NCBI GenBank assembly: GCA_002245135.1
Contig: NGBS01001178.1
Location: 86,802 to 150,801, forward strand
Reading direction: 5' to 3'
DNA from: Proteromonas lacertae
Taxonomy: Eukaryota > Sar > Bigyra > Opalinata > Proteromonadidae
Length of the DNA: 64,000 nt
The notes under the pieces were generated by a model. It ran no database searches, was not told the DNA's origin, and saw nothing but the letters and a program-made list of their open reading frames with translations. Shown one piece after another: positions 5,563-54,720 of this stretch. A program made the position numbers and the translations under genes. The first letter of the stretch is position 1; every line of letters begins with the position of its first letter.

Positions 5563-5740
5563 GGAGTATAATATGTTGTTTATTAATTTATTTATTTTTG
5601 TTTTATATAAGTGATTTTTACAATAATACATACTTAAAAAATTCTCGCAATGGTAATTTTGATGAAAAAAGAGAAAAAAAAGAATATAATGACAAGCAAA
5701 GGCTTGTTTCAAAAGAAAATCGAAAAAGTGAAAAATTAAT

Positions 5741-7767
5741 ATGGACAACTACACTGTAATTCGATCTTTAGGTACTGGTTCTTTTGGTACTGCAGAATTA
5801 GTGAGACGTAAGTCAGATAAAGAATTTTTAGTGATAAAACGAATAATGATCGAAAATATTAAAGATTTAGAGGCAAGTGATTGTCAGAATGAAGTATATT
5901 TGATATTTATTATATATGTCCTATATAATAGGTTGAGGTACTTAAGAAACTAGATCATCCAAACATTATCAAATATTATGGTTCTTTTTACGATAAACAA
6001 AGTTTTAACATAGTAATCGAGTATGCTGATGGTGGTGATCTGTCTAATAAAATAGCTCTAGCAAAAGAAAAGAGTGAGTATAATTATCTCTATCAGTTAT
6101 ACATGTAGATATCTCCAAGAAGATGAAATTCTCTATATTTTCGCCCAAATATGTTCAGCCATCAAGACAATGCATCATAAACACATACTTCATCGAGATC
6201 TCAAAACTCAAAATATATTTTTGACTAAATCACTTATTGTAAAATTAGGTGATTTCGGCATATCAAAAATACTTACAAATACTACAGATTGTGCTAAAAC
6301 AATGATAGGCACACCATATTATATGAGTCCTGAATTATGTGAAGACACTCCTTACAATACAAAATCTGATATTTGGAGTTTGGGATGTGTTCTATATGAA
6401 ATGACTACTACAAATAGAGCGTTTAATGCGAATAATATTTGTGCAGTTGTTATGAAGATATTAAGTGGTAAATATCCACCTATTCCTGACAGATATTCAG
6501 ATGGGTTAAGATTATTAATAAGTATATATATATATATTCAACTAATTTTATTATTTATTATATTTATTTATTGTTATTAGATCGAATGTTACAATTAGAT
6601 CCAAAGAAAAGACCGTCAATCGATGAAATTGTTGCTAGTCCAATCGTCCAAAATGCTTTAACCAATTGGGGACAATTAACCCAAACCATCAAAGCCAATA
6701 ATAGAATATTCGGATCAAGATCTTCATCCTCTCCTAAACGAAGTAATAAAAAGAATTTAATAACAAGTCCATCACCAGCTAATGGCATGGGAAGAAAACA
6801 GCCATATAACCAAGTAAATGATGATCCTACAACTCCATCATCAGCATTATATTTAACACGAAGAAAAGGAGAAATAAAAGCATTTGCTGATAAGTATGTC
6901 AATCCAGAGCAAAGAGACAAGATAATGGCTGATAGAGAAAGAGTTAAATTGGAAAAAGAGAAAAAAGAAGAAGAAAAAGAATCTGAAATACTGAAAGAAA
7001 AAGAGTTAAAACAATTGGCAAGAGAAAGAAAGAAACAAATTGAATATGAAAGACAAGAGAAAGCAAAAGCATTAAAAGAGCATGATAAAGAATTCCATAA
7101 GAAAATGAAATCAGTAAAACCAACACTATCAATTTCACAATTAAAAAGAGAAGCACGAAAAAATAATAAAGTTCATTCAGCAGATGATTTTACTGTTGAA
7201 ATATGCATTCCAAATATGACAAAATCTCAAGTAGTTGAATCTAAATCTGAATCTTCATTAAATGAACCACCACCAATTGTTATTGAAAGAGATAATAATT
7301 ATAGAAATAATAATAGAAAATATTCATCTTCTGAAAGTAAATCTGATTTGAATAATGATGATATTGATACTGTTGTAATACATAAAAATTTAGTTGATGA
7401 TTATTCAACTCCATCTACACCAGATATTGGTCAATGTGATGAAGTTTATAACTGTGAAAAAGAGAATGAATTGGCTATTGAAATGAGTAAATTAAAAAAT
7501 GCAAAACCATCCACACCTGAATCTCATTCTTCTACTAATACTACTACAGCTAATAATGAAGAAGAAGAACCACTTGGAACAAAAATAGAAAAGTTAAAAA
7601 CTCAATGTGAAAAAGCCTTAGGTTTTGATTTATTTATGGAGTTATATAGATATCTGAGAGATCATACTGGTGATACATTTGCACCTGATTTTGTACCTTC
7701 TGATAAAGTGATGTATGTAAGTAGAGTGTTGAGAATAATATCCTATGAGAATGAACTGTTTAAGTAA
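5741..7767 (+). CDS. NIMA-related serine/threonine kinase (NEK)
   Basis: NEK kinases act in mitosis and in basal body and cilium control. Exons 5741-5893, 5932-6077, 6109-6521 and 6581-7767 give 632 aa; introns are 38, 31 and 59 bp. The kinase domain is N-terminal (about residues 4-255). It has a glycine loop LGTGSFG, VIKR with the catalytic Lys, HILHRDLKTQNIFL, GDFGISK, an activation loop ending GTPYYMSPE, and SDIWSLGCVLYEM. All catalytic residues are present. The HRDLK...NIFL plus GTPYYMSPE pattern is typical of NEKs. After the kinase come a Ser/Lys-rich linker, a strongly charged predicted coiled coil (roughly 300-390), a low-complexity Ser/Asn region and a conserved-looking C-terminal helical block (GFDLFMELYRYLRDHTGD). 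NEK subfamily is not resolved. The gene is intact. Confidence 0.93.
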
Positions 7768-42955: not shown

Positions 42956-44877
42956 TCAATAGTTATTATTTATCATAAAACTACCACTTCTACCTCCTGA
43001 TAAAGCACTTGAATTAGTTTCTGTTCTTCTTACACTTGAAGTTGGATTTGAATTTGATGTTGTTGAGATATTTATTGTATTATCATTATCATTGTCATTG
43101 TCATTATTATTATTGTTTTTATCATTTTTATTTCTACTCAACTTATCTTCAATATCCAATAACAACTTCTTTATTTCTTCATTACTTTTGTATAATTTAC
43201 ATTCTTCTAATCTCTTTTCTGTCATTAAATCTTTCTTTATCTCAAAACTATAACCTTGATCCAATAAAAACTTCTGTCTTCTAGTCGCATAATACATTTC
43301 TTTTGTATAAGTTGAAACTAATGAATAGAAATAAGCATTATATCCACTCGTACAGCCTTTCTTTGGTCTTAATATTCGACCTAATCTTTGAGCTTCTTGT
43401 CTTCGAGCTGAAAAATGAGAAGCAACTTGAATCAATACTGTTGCTTGAGGTAAATCAATTGAAGTATCACCAACTCGAGATATAAATAAGGTATTTAAAT
43501 CTTTATTTTCTCGAAATGATTGAAATAAACTCTCTCTTTCTCTTTCACCTACACTTCCATCAATAAATGGTCTTTTCATTGCTAGACTGTATAATCGAAT
43601 TGCTATTATATTATCACAAAAAACTAAGATTTTATCTCCTTGTTTCTCATGATATTTCACTAAATATTCACACGCATGAATCTTGTTAGGATTCATTACA
43701 TAATAAATATTTCGATTTCTTTCATTACTTCTTATATATTGTTTATAAAACTCTTTTTCCATTTCACACCAGATTTCAACACATTGAACTTTGGATAAAA
43801 ATCCATTCTAAAAAGAAAATTATATAATAACAATATATATATAAAATACATCAGTTAATTCCATCCAATTAGCTTCATATAATTTTGGTCCAACCAAATA
43901 ATTCAAATCAGATATTAAATAACTTCTCTTACTAGAGTTGCAGTTAAACCTAACTTACAATGACATTTCATTGAACTTGTTATTCTTCGAAATGTTGATG
44001 CTGGAGCTACATGCACTTCATCTAATATTAATAAACCCCATTCTCGATTTCTCATTTCTTCTAATATCCTTTCAGTATCAGCACCTCTATGACCACTGAA
44101 ACTTAACATCGAATATGTTGTCACTAATAAAACAGCTTCATCTTTAGGTAAATCATGCTATTATCACAATTATATATGAAGATATAAATATATTTATACT
44201 TTTTCATCAGCAGTAAACTTTATTACATTATGTTGAGGTATTGTAGAAAATGTATAAAACTGTTGAACCCATTGATTTACTGAAAATGTCGCTGTACAAA
44301 CACATAAACAACTTTTCTTTATAGTTGAAGCAGCTACAATTCCTACCAATGTTTTACCAGCTCCACAAGGTAATACAACTACTCCAGATCTGCCTCTTCC
44401 ATTACCAAACATTTTACTTAACGATTTCTCTTGATATGGTCTTATATAGACTGAAGATCTTAAATCGATTGGTAAACAGGGATTTTTCTATTCAAATAAC
44501 ATTAATAATATTAATAATATATATATACTGTATCTTTTCTAAAATCATATTCATCAATCATTGGATATATATTATTACATATTTGTTTAATCTTTTCTAC
44601 TGTTTCTTGATCAGATTTTATTGGAAAACTATAATTCTTTCGAGCTTTCGCACTTTCTAATTCTTATTCTATATTTCCTATTTCACCAGCATTCTATTAT
44701 TTATAATTAACATAAAAATATACTAAATTATCTAAATTACTACTCAATTCTTTTAATGTATCACTTTCTTCAAATTCATTTGAATTTTCATTTAATTTTG
44801 CTGTATTTATTTCACTATTGTTTAGCATATCTCTTAATAGTGATGGATTACTTGATTTTTTATCAAGAATGAAAATT
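42956..44877 (-). pseudogene. ERCC3: XPB/ERCC3 DNA helicase of TFIIH, N-terminally truncated with a stop and a frameshift
   Basis: XPB is the 3'-5' SF2 helicase/translocase of TFIIH in transcription initiation and nucleotide excision repair. Exons (minus) run from about 44877 to 44724, then 44693-44529, 44487-44200, 44157-43850 and 43807-42956; introns are 30, 41, 42 and 42 bp. Motifs present: [28 protein letters not shown], Walker [51 protein letters not shown] and DQGYSF, plus an Asn/Ser-rich tail. Missing: the ~300 N-terminal residues of the family; upstream of 44877 the frame closes and no further exon is visible before the next gene at 45041. There is also an in-frame TAA (44664-44666) and a one-base shift at about 43918. 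Probably a broken copy; the full gene may be elsewhere. Confidence 0.85.
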
Positions 44878-45040
44878 TATATTTGAAGTTTTTGAAAGTA
44901 CAAAATAGATATTTCAATTAATTTCATAATAATATTAAGCATCTATGTTTAAATTTTGATTGCTTTTTTAAGCTTGATATAGTTTGTATTTAATAACTAA
45001 ACACACATCTTTGATAATTATATAATTCATTTCTTTAGTA

Positions 45041-48000
45041 ATGGAATCATCAGATTTCTTAACTTATAGCGATCTAAATAAAATTAGACTACATGAAGCT
45101 AAAGTCATAAAAGGCAAAGCTTTCTGTTATTGCTATAATCCTGTTATTTTAATTAGAGATTGCTTCATTCGTATTTACTGTGAAATGAAGAGAATAATTA
45201 TAGAGAATAAGGGATCTAAATATCAAAAATGCTTTTTAGTGTATGGCAATAACCAAATAGGTAAGACAACATTCAGCTGTTTTCTAGCATATTGTTTCAA
45301 CAAAGATAAAGATTTCAGGGAATATAATATAGTGTTTTTCTGTGATCCTGTAAAAGATACACGAATATATTATTTTCGAACAGCTTATGGTGAAATGTAT
45401 TACAAAACAACATATCTGCCAAATACAAAGAGAAAAACACTAATAATTAGTGACAATAAACCCATTAACGAAGATGACTACAGTAGTGCTGAGATAGTGA
45501 TTATGATATCTTCACCAGATGCAAAAAAATACAAAGTAATGAGTAATAAAAGAGCTCCAGTGCAATATTATATACTATCTCTCACAGAAGAGGACATTGA
45601 ATTCAGTATAAGAATAGGAAATAAGTTGAGTGAAAATAAAATATACAACTTTAAAGATGTTAGTGAAATTGATGTAAATAATCAGCATTTACCATCATAT
45701 ATACCACCATCATATAATCAAGAATATTATATATATGATACAGACAGAATAGATGTAATTCCAGAAAGAATAAAATTCAAATCAGAAGAAATAGAAAGAG
45801 AAATAATAATCAGATATTTCAACTCTCCAAAGAAATTTGTAGAGTTGTATGATATATTTGATGAAAATGAAAATGGATTTTTATTTGAAAGAATGTGTCA
45901 TATCATTTTTTCTAAATCAAAAGTTGATAAATTATCTAATAATAATGGCGAATTATATATGTCAAAGAAAATTTGTTATCATGATGATATGAGTAAATTT
46001 GTTAAATATCTTAACTCTAAGGGTAAGTATTATATTGAAAAAGATGATAGAAATGAAAATGTTAATACATTGTATGTTGATTTTAGTACAATTAAAGATT
46101 TCCCAGCAATTGATGGCTGTATTATTAATAAATTCAATATTACAGCTGTTCAAATGACCATTTCAAATGATCATCCTACTTTAGATACAATAATTGTATT
46201 TCTGAATGTATTTATATAATATAATATAATTGATTAGATGATATACAGCTATCATAAAGATAAGATGATAAAATATATATTAAATCATCCAACTATTAAT
46301 CCAACTGTTACTAATCTACTTGCTAGTCCATATCCAACAGAATCTTCATTTTATGATCTTGGTTATATACCAATTAATTTAAAGAGAAATATAATATCTG
46401 AAATGGATCAACGTAAAAGAATCCTATATGAAAGCTATGTATATTATAATATATTATTTCTATTATTATTTATAGTTCTTATTCAATGAACTTAGTTGTA
46501 GAAAAAACATAGATTCTAGTTTAATTAAAAACTATAGTGTTGAGAGACAGACTGAATTCTTGAGTATCATGGATGGCAATATGAAAAAGATAAACAAATT
46601 AGAGCTTGAATTACTCCCTAAGAGTCAGGAAGTATTGAAATGTATTAAAAATAATCAAAAACTTACACAATATCAGAACGTAACTTTATTGGAAGAACGA
46701 TTAGATGCATTAGAAACACAAGTAAGTTTTTTTCGCAACACATTTGGAAGAATTAAAAGTAAAAATAAGTACATATGATAGAAAGTTGAAAGCATTAACG
46801 AAAAAAATAGAACAATCAAAAGATGATAAGTCAGAAAATATCTCCAAAAAGCGAAAAAGGACAAATACAAAAAAAGGCACTGAGCTTATTGAAGGATACA
46901 GAATAAAAATCAGATTATTCATTTTTAAGAATCTGGCAGATAAAGTTTATATTCAATTAGATGAATCAAAAGACTCAATACAAAAGTGTGTATATGAATT
47001 ATCTATAGTAAAAACAAAATTAATTAAGCAAAGAATCAATCAGTTAAAGGCTAATGTAGAAATAATAAAAAATGGCATATCAGAACAAATAAGTAACGTA
47101 GAGGTTATATTTTCTGACCATTTGCCATCACTAGCAACATCCGAATATTTAATTTTTATAGGAATATTACAAAATGAATTAAAAACTTTTGAAAAAGAAG
47201 TAAAAGAAATTCATAATCAATTAAAAGATTTATTCAATGAAAATCAACCCAATGAACCAACTCCTGAATTAGATTATTTAGATTCGTTGTTAGAAAATGG
47301 ATTATCATATATATCAGAAAGGTTTATGGATATAATAAAATTACAAAGTAATCGTACAGAATTGCAAAGTGAATTAAAAGTATTATGTAATTTACAAGAG
47401 ACATTGAAGAGTAATATATATATAATGAATAAAGTCTTCCAATCATATTTACAATGGGATCATTATGCATTTGAAAATGATCTTCAAACACAATTAACAT
47501 ATTTCAGAACTTTCTTACAAAATTCATTTTTACAAGGTGCAACAATAACAGAAGTATTAGAAAATGAAGAAAATAATATAGAAGAAGAAGAAAGTATTAA
47601 TGAAGAAGAAAAACGGCGTAATACTGAAGATGACTCCTATAATATGGAAGAAGAAGAAAATACAGAAGAAGAAAACTCTTATAATATGGAAGAAGCTATT
47701 CAAGATTCAATAGATTTATATAATGAATTTGTTTTTTTACAACATTTATTTCAATTTATTAATATATATGATCTTGAAGAAGCAAATGAGTTAGTGAAAT
47801 GTGAAATAAATTCAAAGTTGTTACATGATCTGGATGACTATTTAATCGATGTTATATATAATGACTTAGATGATAATAAAAAAATAGAAATGAAACAAAG
47901 AATCATTGATGTATATAAAATGTATTATTATTATTACTATAGGCAATTGGCAAGGAAATTCAACCAATTTATGCTACTACCAATAATAAATTGAAAAATG

Positions 48001-49140
48001 AATTGAAAAATGAATTGGATATATGTAATCCATTATTTAAAATAGTATTTGTTACATATAAAAATGATAATGTTCAGAGTGAACTGGTAAAAGGTGATTT
48101 GAAATTTGGGATGTATAGCAATGATTTTAAAATTGAAATGATAAAAGAAATGAAAAAAACTTATAAGTGGGATATTAAATCTCCCTCAGCAAATGATGAA
48201 AATGACGAAAATCCAACAAAAAAACGAAAAATAGAATATAATGATGATAATAATACTAATAATAAAAATAAAATACCTGAAAATATCATCATATCAATAA
48301 AATCAAAAAGAATTAGATTTTCTGTTATAAAAATATCTAAAAAGAATTATTTGATAGTTCAGGATGTAAAATTCCTACAATGAAACGCTATACTGCAGGT
48401 AAGACCTTGAGATTTTCACCAAAAGAATGTTCAAATATACTTATTAATAAACCGATCAAAAAGGAAAATAAACCGGAAACAGATATAAAAGAGTTGATTA
48501 AAAAATTTAACGATAGTATTACTACTCGAGCTAATACCACTGATAGTTTAGAACAAACTTGTTCTAGATGTAATGATTTAATTCTACAGTTCAATAATTG
48601 TAGAATTGACAAATTAAAAAATAATAAACTAAGTCAGCATATCAAAGATGATATTGAAATCATGTTTAACAGAATAGATGAAAGTGTAGTACTCAATAAA
48701 AAAAATAAAAAAGTAAAGCAATTGAAAGATTTCATTAAATTAACTTTTCCTGTTGATAATAAAAGTCTAAATGTGTATATTGAAAAGTTGTTATCTGCAT
48801 TTAATTCAATAAAAGAAATTATACCAAATGTAAATAATTATTGTTTACCTTGTTCAAGTATATTTTATATCGATATATTATTCTAATAATAGAAACAAAT
48901 GCAATATGTCGAATATTTGAAGAAGCAGTAACTTTAAATGATGATAATACAATAAGTATTGGATGTTATGTTTACCAATATCCTGAAAAGAAAGTGTATA
49001 TCCGAAGTGTTTATAAAGATATATGGAATGAATTACAATATTATATTTTATTTTTCAAAATAAAAAATGATAAAAGTAAAGATGTAAATAAGATTAATAT
49101 TATTATTAAGGTTATAAATGAATTAATTGAAAAAAGATAA
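45041..49140 (+). CDS. Crinkler/RHS-type NTPase-REase protein with long coiled-coil extension; two probable frameshifts
   Basis: N-terminal P-loop NTPase: FLVYGNNQIGKTTF (Walker A, about residues 65-78), with KTLIISDNK and IVIMISSPD. A restriction-endonuclease-like domain follows: GFLFERMCHIIFS, then AIDGCII..ITAVQMTISNDHP, which is the Crinkler/RHS pattern of FE...H, D and the Q-x-T-x-S strand. Exons 45041-46207, 46238-46438 and 46476 onward; introns are 30, 37, 32 (47911-47942) and 35 bp (48858-48892). A coiled-coil and acidic region of about 800 residues continues the same reading, but the frame changes in a seven-T run (46727-46733) and near 48380. It could be one ~1,300-aa protein or two to three genes. 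By family these proteins come from mobile-element-derived nucleases used as effectors or in conflict; the role here is unknown. Confidence 0.7.
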
Positions 49141-49148
49141 TAACAAGA

Positions 49149-52100
49149 ATGCCAAAAGATATTTTCATATGTTTTAGAAAAGGTATTGATGAAATAAGCA
49201 ATTATAATGAAAAAAATATGATTCTAGAAGATTTAAACAATAGATTTTTAGCAAGAAGAATCGAAAAGGATGGAAAGGATTTTAATATAGGTAGATGTTT
49301 TAAGATTTTATTAAGAGGAAATCCAGGATGTGGTAAGACCTCCTTTATAATATTTTTGTTGAAGATGATATTTGAATTGAATGAAAGAATTAGTGATGAT
49401 GAATTACATATTAAGGCATCAATATTTAAAAATTCAGAAGAACAAACATGTAGTCAATATCGATTAGAAGGTAAACATGTAAAAGAAGTAAATGATGATG
49501 AACGTTGCGATATAGCTATATCTGATTCATATGACCTTAATAAAACAACTGCAAGCGCTTCAATTATATTATATGTTACTTCACCAGATTATAAGAATTA
49601 TAAACATTTTTATGATTCAGATATTAATAAGGCCTATTATTTTATGGATGTATTTAGTGATAAAGAAATTTTAGATTGGGAAGAAAAATGTTTATCTAGT
49701 GAATTGAGAGAATCAATAAACAAGAAAGAAAATCAATTCAATAAAAAATATGGAAATGTTCCAAGACATATTTATTATGCTTCAATATATGATAATTGTT
49801 ATGGAAAAGATTATTGGGATCAGTTATACTCAATGGGTATTAAAAGAATAATAGGTGGTCTTGGATATATGGAATTTCTAATGAAATATCTATTTCCAAG
49901 TAAATCTAAAACTGATAAAATATCCAATAGAAAAGTTACATTTGATAGTACCTTATGCCATTATATAGTGAAATATTCTATTCCATATAAAGATAAAGAT
50001 AAAACAACCAAATGTTATGATAGAATCAACGAAGATCAAATGGAATTTATATCTGATGAGGTATATGATTTTATATATTATAATATAAAACACAAAGCTG
50101 AAGAAGAAGATGTGAAAAAACTTCAAAATATTTTTGCAGATATTTATGATAAAAAATATCATCAATTATTTCAATTATTATTTGAAGAACTAATTTTTTA
50201 CAACTGTTTATATAATACAGATAAGTTACAGAGAAGCAAAGGTCGTAGTATATTATTAGAAGAAATAAAAGACGATAAATTTGAAGAGTTTAAAAAATTA
50301 TTTGATGTAGATATCTATTCTACTAAAATGAAAGGAGTATATATACTTCATTTAGCAACTCTTGAGAATAGAGAAATGATTTATTTGGTGAACAATTGTT
50401 TTATTCATATATTAAATGATGAAAGAAAAGTAGATTTTGATGATAAAATAAATGAATGTATATGTGGTTTGCACGATAAGATGAAATATTCAAAAATGTA
50501 CTATGTTGTAGTATCCAATAATTGCTCATCTGTTTCATCATCTTCTGAAACAAAAGTATCAGTTTCCCATTTTAAAGGAGAGGCAAAAATAAATAAAACA
50601 AATATTATATATTGTACATCAAAATTTGGTAATTCAGTATATGGAAATGCTTTCAATATACAAATTGGAAATGATAAAGAAGTTGAATTTAAAAAGAATA
50701 GTAATACACAGACTGCAATACTAACATCAGTATCAATACCACCATCACCACCACCACCACAACAACAATTACAATCAATTGATAATGATGGTATTTACTT
50801 TGGAACTTCTATTGATAATGTGGGTGATAAATGTGGTTTAGTGAATGAAGGTAATACTAGTTACTTGAACTCAACATTGCAATGTTTAGCTCATATCGTA
50901 CCATTACAATATTATTTCAAAAACACATACGAAGAGATATATTTTGATGAAAATGATGATAATAATACTTGCATGACAAAAGCTATCGCTCTTTTATTAA
51001 GAGATTTAGTGAAGCAAGATACTAAAAAGATAGCAATATGTCCAAAAAATGTAAAAATAGCAATAGAAAAATGTGATAGAGAATTAAGAGTTGACATACA
51101 AAAGGATGCATATGAATTACTACAGTTACTATTAAATAATCTCAATAATGAAGCCAACAAACTATTTTTAGTAGTATTTGATAATAAAATAAAATGTAAA
51201 ACAAAATTTAAACCAAAAGTACATGATTTTTTTTTTGGTTTATCAGTTAAAGTTCCTGATAATGTAAAGGATGGTGTTAAGTTAGAAAATTGTCTTAATT
51301 CTTGTAAAAAAATAATACAAACCCCCAAAATATTAATAATTCATTTGAACAGATTTGGTAATATGAATAAAGAGATACACACAGTTGTGGATATTTATGA
51401 TGTATTAGATTTAACAAGTTATGTAAAAAGTATATTAATATATATTAATATATTATATTTTAAATAGATGGAGAAAAGAAAGTATATGATTTGATAGGAA
51501 TGTCAAGTTACAGTTTCTCAATGCATCATTACATTGCTATATGTAAATCAACTCATGATAATAAATGGTTTATATTTGATGATGATGAAGTAATGAATGA
51601 ATCTGATATAGAGAATAAGAATGAGAAATATTCTGATTTTCTTCCATACATATTATTTTATCAGTTAAGAGAAGAAGGAGAAAACATGATGGATGAAGAA
51701 AATGATGATGAAGATGATGATGAAGAAGGTGATGAAAATGATGATGAAGAAGGTGATGAAAATGATGATAAAGATGAAGGTATAATATTTAAAATACCAA
51801 TAGGCGATACATGTGGTATTGAGAGAAAAGATAGTAATAATTGCTACATTAACTCCACTCTTCAATGTTTTACCCATTTAGAACCATTTCGAGATTTCTA
51901 CTTGAGAAATAAATCATTTTCTAATAATTTAGAAAATAAATTTTCTGATTTATTTCTTAACATATGTATAAAAAGTAATAATACAATAAAGCAGAATAGT
52001 AGTATATTTATAGAATTTAAAAATGCTTTAAGACCAATATTAGATATTGATCAACAACAAGATACATCGGAATTTGTAGATTTACTAATAGATAATATCA

Positions 52101-52486
52101 ATGAAATCAAAAACCTATCTTATAAAATATATGAAAAATATGAAAATTTGAATAATATTTCATTTGAAGAAATAAAACAAGTTTCAGTTATTGAGATTAG
52201 AAAATGTGGTGATGAAAAGAAAAATGCAAAAGAAAATTCAAATGAATCTCTTACACTTAATATTATTAACGAATATAAAGAATTGGCTGTGGATAATTAT
52301 ATTTATGAATTAAAAGGAATGACATGTTATTATGCTAATCATTATATTGCTATATGTAAATCAACTCAGGATAAAGAATGGTATATATTTAATGATGATA
52401 AAATAAAACCTACATCTGTAATAAAAAAGAAAAAATATTATCAGAATTTTTCCCCTAATTTATTGTTTTATCAGTTGAGGGAATGA
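49149..52486 (+). CDS. P-loop NTPase fused to two ubiquitin-specific protease (USP) domains
   Basis: Exons 49149-51429 and 51468-52486 (38-bp intron) give an intact 1,099-aa protein. The N-terminal NTPase has Walker A RGNPGCGKTSF (about 57-66), resembling the neighbouring Crinkler-type NTPase (VTSPDYKNYK versus ISSPDAKKYK). After a Pro/Gln linker, USP domain 1 shows GLVNEGNTSYLNSTLQCL (about 561-578), KDAYELLQLLLNNL, and the His box HHYIAICKSTHDNKWFIFDD (near 778). The catalytic Cys of GNTCY is Ser. After an Asp/Glu/Asn linker, domain 2 has DSNNCYINSTLQCF (Cys kept), QQQDTSEFVDLL and NHYIAICKSTQDKEWYIFND. Domain 2 could cleave ubiquitin; domain 1 may only bind it (inference). It begins 8 bp after the previous stop, unusually close for this genome. 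Confidence 0.85.
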
Positions 52487-53141: not shown

Positions 53142-54720
53142 TTATAATACATATAATTCATCAGCTTTTCTTTTCATTTTTTCATTTACTTCTTTTGTAA
53201 CAGGTATTATTGTAAATGCTAAAGATGTAGTAAGTTTAATTTGAATATTAATAGTATACAATCCATATAAATCTTTAGTTTTTTTATCTTCTTTAATTAT
53301 TCCTTTCTTGTTGTTATCTGCGTAATTCTTCTTCTTGTCGGTATAGACAATTATATCACCATGTTTAGGATTGATATAAGTTATCTTCAGCTTCTTTTCT
53401 GATTCATCATGCATATTATCATTATATTCATCTCTTCTTTTACTAATGTAATCTTTTACTTGTTAGAGTTTATGTTCATTTTTAAAATATCTTTTCTGAT
53501 GTTTTCTATGTTTTTTTTCTCATCATATTTTTCTTTTCTATTTCTATTACTTCAACTTCATCGCATTCATCATCATAAAAGTATTCTTTATCATCTTCTT
53601 TAGAGCAATCACATAATTCATCATGACAAACATTACCATCATCATCACCATCAACTGTACCATTATTACCATCTTCTTCGCCATTTTCTTTTATAAATAA
53701 CTTTGGGTTTTCCTTCTTTAATTGTTTAATATCCATATAGAATAAAGATCTAGGCTTAGAATGTATTCTTCTGCACTTGTGATTGTTTATTGTTTCAATA
53801 ATTTTATCAACAAATTCAGTCCAATAAATGCCTTTATTCTATATCATGAATCCTTTTAAAGTGTTTTTCACAACTTGGTTGTAATTTTCTACATTTCCAT
53901 TCGTTTGAGGCCTATATGGTGCACTATGAACTTCTTCAATTCCATATTCATTGCATAAACTTCTCATCAAATCATTCTTGAATTCAGTACCATTATCCAT
54001 TTGAAGAATTTGAGGAGCACCAAAAATTCTGATATAATTTCTCATATTCTTCACTGTTTCTTCTTTTGTTTTTCTCTTTAATGGATATATAATTGTAAAA
54101 TTACTGTAATGATCAATCACTGTAAGAATGTAATTAAACTGTTCTTCTTCAGTAAATGTATATTTCTCATTGATTTTACTCATATTAATTAGATCACATA
54201 ACACTCTTTCGCGTGGATAGCTTGATAGTATAGGTTTTAGCAATTGTTCAACATGAACTTTCTTCAATTCTTTACATCCAGAACATGTTTTTACGAATAC
54301 ATATACCATTTCTCTGGTAATACCATAGTACTTCTTTTCATTAACCAAGTAATACAAAGGTTCAATTGTAATGTGACCATTACCTTCGTGTAATTTTTTT
54401 AGTACATCAAACGATTCTTCAGTTTTAATAACCTTCTTTCCTTAAAACAATAACTGCTTTGTCATTTCATCGTTTTTCTTTTTGGTAAAGCTTCTACAAC
54501 GATAATTATCTTCTTCTACTTCATTACTACTAGTAGAACGGCTTCTTTTGTTTCCTTTCTTTCTCTTTTCGATACTTACAGAATGACTTCTTCTGCGTTC
54601 TTTTCTCTTTTTATCGCATCTGGAAGAGATTTTTTCTTTAAACAACTTATCAAGTGCTGAATAATAAAGAGGTTTGTGATCGTCCTCAAGTACTTGATCA
54701 AGGTGTAATACTTCAGAAAA
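53142..54720 (-). pseudogene. Decayed integrase (DDE, HHCC zinc finger), three in-frame stops and one frameshift
   Basis: Reading the minus strand from about 54720, one frame shows an upstream basic region, a zinc-binding HHCC module (LHEGNGHITIEPL ... CSGCKELKK) and a retroviral-type integrase core. The core has Asp in VLCDLINMS, TVIDHYSNF, the DNGTEF motif, and RPQTNGNVENYNQ with the third acidic residue. A C-terminal part follows (YINPKHGDIIVY). All three catalytic acids are present. The frame is broken by TAA (54442-54444), TAG (53839-53841), TAA (53463-53465) and a shift in an eight-T run (53511-53518, plus strand). It resembles integrases of Ginger/KRBA2-like or LTR elements and is only distantly like the Polinton integrase at 59.6-60.7 kb. 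No reverse transcriptase is visible nearby. Confidence 0.75.

Follow-up and report, generated by a model that had tools for sequence, protein, structure and literature searches.

CR (Crinkler-RHS-type) proteins combine a P-loop NTPase with modular C-termini, occur in large families and can carry peptidases, of which the excerpts of PMC5289972 available to us list trypsin, zincin-like and Ulp1-like types. For CifB of Wolbachia, the available part of PMC11342252 traces the nuclease domains to elements akin to CR effectors and describes repeated gain of Ulp1, OTU and PL-OTU deubiquitinases, with a proposed guardian or co-effector role. Among ubiquitin-specific proteases (USPs, peptidase family C19), USP39 and USP50 are held to be inactive, with the third or fourth critical residue concerned according to the section of PMC10867860 used here; the corresponding section of PMC12037411 reports that USP54 loses cleavage when its Cys is mutated and that 'inactive' labels of USPs can be wrong. 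Here, we describe a locus in a 64,000-nucleotide stretch of the Proteromonas lacertae genome (assembly GCA_002245135.1, contig NGBS01001178.1, positions 86,802 to 150,801, forward strand; henceforth the window, in whose numbering all coordinates are given) at which P-loop NTPase modules are joined to two USP domains, termed USP1 and USP2 by their order in the chain, the first with Ser in place of the catalytic Cys. We tentatively read the locus, at slightly less than an even chance, as one member of a large family of NTPases with two modules that would be Crinkler/RHS-like conflict proteins with captured USPs.

In common with CR proteins, the locus has a P-loop NTPase, modular C-termini, a large family and peptidase cargo; it differs in showing no CR or RHSP profile above cut-off, in carrying two P-loop modules per chain and in its cargo, since the excerpts of PMC5289972 name no USP as a CR peptidase. 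With CifB it would share a conflict core that acquired deubiquitinases, to which the guardian proposal could extend; CifB, as far as the available part of PMC11342252 describes it, combines Ulp1/SMT4, OTU and PL-OTU with restriction endonuclease (REase) domains, whereas here USPs are joined to NTPases in a eukaryotic genome. USP4, USP15 and USP11 are the closest known proteases: USP4 and USP15 are the nearest solved relatives of USP1, which has an intron in common with the genome's own USP4/15-like gene but carries Ser for Cys, is joined to an NTPase and is shorter (266 versus 345 amino acids (aa) between the same motifs). USP39 and USP50 resemble USP1 as USP domains with altered catalytic residues, yet what is altered in USP1 is the nucleophile, and its chain goes on to a USP that has the Cys.

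The core of the locus is a frame of 1,099 aa that reads from 49149 to 52486 once 38 nt (51430-51467) are spliced out and that contains, in this order, a P-loop NTPase (NTPase2), a Q/P-rich linker, USP1, an acidic linker and USP2. Against a Pfam cut-off of 23.9 bits, the UCH profile scores 93.5 bits in USP1 (2e-26, residues 562-760 of the first open reading frame, ORF) and 90.5 bits in the second ORF (1.8e-25), which includes the end of USP1 and has its best-matching stretch in USP2. The original prediction, made from the sequence letters, had proposed an NTPase fused to two C19 domains and a C19 profile search as a check; the profile is found above cut-off in both halves. The Cys box of USP1 reads CGLVNEGNTSYLNS, with Ser (AGT) under the catalytic Cys of human USP4 (2y6e) and USP15, and its HHYIAICKS...WFIFDDD stretch aligns with the His/Asp box of both, which bears out the predicted Cys-to-Ser change beside an intact His box. 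Judged from these alignments, USP1 is a USP by descent and is not filed as an active peptidase. In USP2, whose Cys box reads CGIERKDSNNCYINS, alignment to the human protein of the same name shows the Cys, QQD and NHYIAICKS...WYIFNDD kept. Behind the His, both domains retain, by letters, the two residues called third and fourth critical in the section of PMC10867860 used here.

The Ser state recurs across the genome. A survey of Cys boxes covered 24 sources, several of them near-copies, with search patterns drawn from boxes already seen; 26 boxes were read in 22 of these sources (17 Cys, 7 Ser, 2 Gly), a Cys was seen by eye in C969, and C684 yielded no box. All seven Ser loci (the window, C261, C782, C391, C1155, C731 and C1111) use AGT and retain the His box. 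They represent approximately four lineages, since C261 and C782 nearly duplicate the window copy and C731 nearly duplicates C1111. A single mutation or a sequencing error was rejected as the source of the Ser, given its presence at seven loci. A USP tree was built from 21 sequences, six of them with Ser; C782 was omitted for a frame change within USP1, C991 and C354 entered without the last exon, and C1178 and C897 entered with extra C-terminal residues. The six Ser sequences form one side of a single branch (support 94/95).

To this distribution we add a comparison of the Ser domains of the window and four other loci by pairwise dN/dS (ratio of non-synonymous to synonymous substitution rates, NG86; ten pairs, not independent of one another), in which pairs with C261 would duplicate those with the window. 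Each pair was set against 2,000 neutral simulations of AT-rich composition, with base frequencies and a kappa of 2 assumed. The ratios, with the number of neutral runs as low, were 0.52 for C1155-C1111 (1 of 2,000), 0.56 for C1155-C731 (4), 0.64 for window-C1155 (6), 0.67 for window-C391 (20), 0.75 for window-C1111 (102), 0.76 for window-C731 (101), 0.79 for C1111-C391 (195), 0.79 for C731-C391 (221), 0.85 for C1155-C391 (419) and 2.5 for C731-C1111 (1,281; 1 synonymous and 10 non-synonymous changes). For NTPase2, values among the window, C1155, C731 and C1111 lie at 0.40-0.60, except for C731-C1111 (1.97). A simulated neutral branch of half length gained 3 to 6 stops, with at most 2.7% of runs stop-free (five of the ten Ser pairs run), while all Ser-bearing USPs other than that of C782 are open frames. 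Because four of the ten pairs fall clearly below neutral and 3 to 6 stops would be expected on a neutral branch, constraint on the Ser-bearing USP is likely but weak.

Searches of the 50.2-Mb genome (1,181 contigs), whose counts are lower bounds, returned at least 86 matches to NTPase2, at least 129 to a further P-loop module, NTPase1, and at least 134 to UCH. Merging the NTPase2 matches, with one piece kept per place and seven second pieces dropped, left 79 places. In 68 of these, NTPase1 is found on the same strand no more than 7 kb upstream, compared with 9 of 79 for the downstream side and 2 of 79 for the other strand. A UCH piece follows within 2.5 kb downstream of NTPase2 in 21 of the 79 places, and 17 have both NTPase1 and UCH. 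In C855, a single uninterrupted ORF of 1,359 aa (UCH 5.7e-11) contains P-loop 1, P-loop 2 and the greater part of a USP, in this order; it lacks the C-terminal part of exon 1, and the end of its USP sits behind the conserved intron. Given this ORF and the 68 upstream placements, NTPase1 is unlikely to be an unrelated neighbour gene. NTPase2 copies are both tandem and dispersed, and many members of the family have long open frames. No USP was seen in 17 of the 37 sequences of the NTPase2 tree; where frames were read, such copies end 12 to 139 residues past NTPase2. USP-bearing and USP-less copies are interspersed in this tree by eye (C821 stands next to L028 and C976 next to L027), which we read as a sign that the C-terminal cargo is swappable. 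Several members have unusual arrangements: C363:7194-28940 is a tandem array of four NTPase2 copies spaced approximately 6.8 kb apart, the last with many stops; L053 and L068 (C630, C685) join a distant NTPase2 (30% identical in C630) to a single USP2-type domain, with an NTPase1 match upstream; and in L069 (C969) the N-terminal part is of another kind, with FDYGYY-like stretches, and is followed by a domain that resembles USP2 (50% identity). Elsewhere in the genome, the 18S ribosomal RNA at L064 contains the unusual stretch GGTAATACCATCATTAC, a position that in most eukaryotes presumably reads GGTAATTCCAGC, and the EF-1A does not have the insertion typical of opisthokonts.

The 1,099-aa frame would belong to a larger gene that most likely starts at 45041 and, by addition of its partly predicted exons, comes to approximately 2,400 codons. 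Upstream of 49149, its exons are separated by short introns (30-37 nt). The features are as follows.

45041..46207, + strand: exon 1, with NTPase1, the P-loop VYGNNQIGKTT and a C-terminal part ending ...FPAIDGCIINKFNITAVQMTIS (ORF 45041-46219; exon end common to paralogues)
46208..46237, + strand: putative intron of 30 nt, GTATTT...TTAG, placed by eye (exon 1 frames of paralogues stop at the same place)
46238..46438, + strand: putative exon 2, open in frame between putative introns, by eye
46439..46475, + strand: putative intron of 37 nt, from the sequence
46476..47910, + strand: exon 3, coiled-coil-like part, opening FLFNELSCRKNI... (same opening residues in C261, similar ones in several paralogues)
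47911..47942, + strand: putative intron of 32 nt, from the sequence (the C261 frame that follows opens AIGKEIQPIY)
47943..48857, + strand: exon 4, helical part (inside one 312-aa frame in C261)
48858..48892, + strand: intron of 35 nt, from the sequence (splicing by eye restores the part order of P0002, a relative on a public contig)
48893..51429, + strand: exon 5, with the end of the helical part, NTPase2, the Q/P-rich linker and most of USP1 (875-aa frame in C261; window ORF from 49149)
49149..49151, + strand: ATG taken as the start in the original prediction, not that of the family (C261 and C782 frames)
49314..49343, + strand: Walker A of NTPase2, RGNPGCGKTS, invariant across 18 aligned sequences
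50832..51429, + strand: N-terminal and middle part of USP1 (Pfam UCH)
50859..50861, + strand: AGT in USP1, encoding Ser in place of the catalytic Cys (alignment to USP4/USP15)
51430..51467, + strand: intron of 38 nt, phase 1 (position and phase match the genome's USP4/15-like gene)
51468..52486, + strand: exon 6, with the His/Asp part of USP1, the acidic linker, USP2 and the stop (ORF 51491-52486; Pfam UCH)
51527..51529, + strand: His of USP1 (HHYIAICKS; alignment)
51686..51777, + strand: acidic linker of 12/24-bp tandem repeats (C261 diverges directly behind)
51785..52483, + strand: USP2, with Cys at 51842-51844 and His at 52340-52342 (Pfam UCH, alignment to human USP2)

In the sister copies C261 and C782, an open frame runs from upstream of 49149 into NTPase2, and the ATG at this position stands in a stretch read out of frame, so that it is not the start in the family. 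P0002 likewise has an uninterrupted frame 5' of its P-loop; the window counterpart of that upstream segment, 48895-49068, lies in a different frame. Compared with C261, the window copy has four single-base frame-changing differences between approximately 46.7 and 49.2 kb, including one in exon 3 near 46.75 kb and one in exon 4 near 48.35 kb; further length differences of 6, 12, 18 and 9 nt preserve the frame, and one of 5 nt at the alignment edge was excluded as a cutting artefact. Of the 'intact 1,099-aa protein' in the original prediction, the spliced frame therefore stands, while its start does not, and the frame upstream differs from that of C261. The gene has a retroelement integrase core (rve, 1e-14; 53839-54357, - strand) approximately 1.4 kb downstream, and an ordinary housekeeping neighbour, the C-terminal helicase part of XPB/ERCC3, at 42959-43762 (- strand; 2.2e-85).

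The two USPs appear to differ in provenance. The genome has a USP gene of its own on C158, and for this gene (USP4, 3.8e-71) as for USP1 the closest relatives of solved structure are USP4 and USP15. One intron is common to the C158 gene and USP1: it splits the same codon in the same phase, and five residues separate that codon from YDLIG. When sought at exactly that place, this intron is present in 11 of 13 sequences, C158 included, and not in C991 and C354; the same introns were found in 9 of 13 copies when the phase was left free. From the intron and the relatives we infer the direction of transfer: the USP4/15-like gene of this genome is the most likely source from which USP1 was captured. 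In USP2 and the sequences on its side of the USP tree, the frame runs on without an intron at this site, and the USP1 and USP2 sides are split by a branch with 100/99 support. This split, together with the unbroken intron site, favours two acquisitions over a duplication. That a single USP was duplicated in tandem is accordingly unlikely, subject to a long-branch warning round USP2; the likeness of the His-box DNA of the two domains speaks against rejecting it. That DNA (51525-51621 in USP1, 52338-52434 in USP2) is 79% alike over 97 nt in domains that are otherwise far apart, for which gene conversion is a possible cause. C261, which is 99.4% identical to the window over 44718-51779, is without USP2 and diverges at 51779, directly behind the acidic linker, which suggests that the acidic repeat was the junction at which USP2 was added. 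In a separate observation on these two copies, 44432-44857, upstream of the window copy, is matched at 98.4% by C261:12909-13334, which lies on the downstream side of the C261 copy, and approximately 140 bp of this stretch also lies upstream of the C261 copy (5695-5834), as if both copies came from a tandem array.

A second pairing of unlike USPs occurs in the close copies C216 and C821, which have two USPs per frame, the first with Cys and the second with Gly at the aligned position (read by eye in an ungapped alignment), and a His box in both. In C991 the second box has Cys and the frame stops directly after it, and the second match in C976 is weak. Since Cys-bearing and Cys-less domains are paired in two lineages in opposite order (Ser-Cys in the window, Cys-Gly in C216/C821), the pairing itself may be selected; with so few pairs, this pattern is a lead only.

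These data are consistent with the following scenario. A conflict or mobile core with two P-loop modules, one N-terminal and the other behind a coiled-coil-like part, would have acquired deubiquitinases as C-terminal 'guardian' or co-effector domains, as in CR and CifB proteins, through Q/P-rich or acidic low-complexity linkers. The nucleophile of USP1 would have been lost in the ancestor of the seven loci and the domain retained as a non-cleaving ubiquitin binder; with the nucleophile gone and the rest of the box kept, USP1 most likely binds ubiquitin without cutting. USP2, from a different USP sublineage, would have been added in this copy and would supply, or once have supplied, the cleaving half; it may cleave ubiquitin. 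The P-loop modules would hydrolyse ATP. Such an arrangement could serve to shield the protein from ubiquitin marks or to redirect them. A more elaborate version, in which a double-NTPase selfish or immune protein works as a ubiquitin trap-and-cut machine whose clade-kept dead USP holds chains while the separately acquired USP cuts them, we consider rather unlikely.

The original prediction had called the NTPase Crinkler-like and of a conflict/effector family. The second part is supported by the behaviour of the family (79 places, variable cargo, tandem and dispersed copies) and by middling matches of NTPase1 to STAND/AAA+ folds, which make NTPase1 possibly STAND/AAA+-like, but by no CR or RHSP profile above cut-off. 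The RHSP profile matched one of nine module sequences at all in a Pfam scan, below cut-off, and its match to the NTPase1 ORF (0.018) also stays below cut-off; the NTPase1 profile gave no match at E 1 among PDB sequences. The QMTIS ending of exon 1 may resemble a REase-fold domain, in a region where model confidence is approximately 30.

Several observations weigh against reading the locus as a conflict protein with captured USPs. On the window module, RHSP reaches 14.9 bits against a cut-off of 25, and Pfam scans found no Crinkler (Ubl) header in the N-terminal module at E 1 or better. USP2, although it retains the boxes originally predicted, has no GNT motif and carries Lys at the Asn of 'RNLGNTC' in human USP2. 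In the Cys box of USPs, this Asn has an oxyanion role. On account of the missing motif and the Lys, the activity of USP2 is not assured. Two predicted structures are weak (mean predicted local distance difference test score, pLDDT, 50.5 and 43.1; below 50 in the USP part), do not resolve the USP fold and gave no Foldseek match at E 0.001 or better. The USP tree carries the long-branch warning already mentioned, and the seven Ser copies do not group together in the NTPase2 tree (two changes; 0% of bootstrap trees with one), which fits later exchange of cargo or a less simple history. For six of the ten Ser pairs, dN/dS does not fall clearly below neutral, and for C731-C1111 it exceeds 1. The window copy is frame-broken 5' of 49149 relative to C261, which may reflect decay of the copy or an error in the assembly. 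Among 5.8 billion proteins (7,988 and 7,996 candidates scored), three NTPase2 relatives were found (P0002-P0004), none with a precomputed Pfam domain, and a Pfam scan of P0002 and P0003 found no UCH; the proposal to look for the same fusion in other genomes thus yielded three relatives beyond this genome, none of which shows a USP. A viral origin was also considered and rejected: a scan of viral contigs gave three loci, and the match at each spans 29 residues round Walker A. The literature searched, which covered few subscription papers and no preprints, contained no description of an NTPase-USP fusion of this kind. The picture of an unfamiliar architecture in the original prediction is to be corrected in two points: the protein has two P-loops, and such fusions make up a family in this genome.

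Three other explanations have to be set against these data. The frame differences and the Ser could be neutral wear in decaying multicopy debris of a dead or dying repeat family. The frame-changing differences of the window copy, the frame change inside USP1 of C782, the family members with internal stops (some merely introns) and the six Ser pairs with ratios not clearly lower than neutral all fit such wear; set against it are the identical AGT at seven loci with the His box kept in each, Ser-bearing USPs that stay open on branches where simulation would add stops, and the many long open frames across the family, and we hold this explanation to be unlikely. The locus could also encode a secreted Crinkler-type parasite effector whose USPs act on host ubiquitin, a role for which the peptidase cargo listed for CR proteins in the excerpts of PMC5289972 offers a precedent; with no Crinkler header domain detected by Pfam in the N-terminal module, this seems quite improbable. 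An intracellular immune sensor is a further option, to which we give a small share of the probability: NTPase1 and NTPase2 would be STAND switches which, on detecting an invader, assemble into oligomers and expose the USPs, and these would strip or hold ubiquitin and thereby alter signalling or trigger cell death.

If the locus is indeed a conflict protein with captured USPs, the recruitment of deubiquitinases by such proteins, of which the available part of PMC11342252 names Ulp1 and OTU types, would be widened to the USP class, with a source gene that can be traced in the same genome by a common intron. A clade-wide dead USP joined to a Cys-bearing USP would be a natural test of the role of pseudo-deubiquitinases, and the dead and live USP versions within one genome would make a good comparative set.
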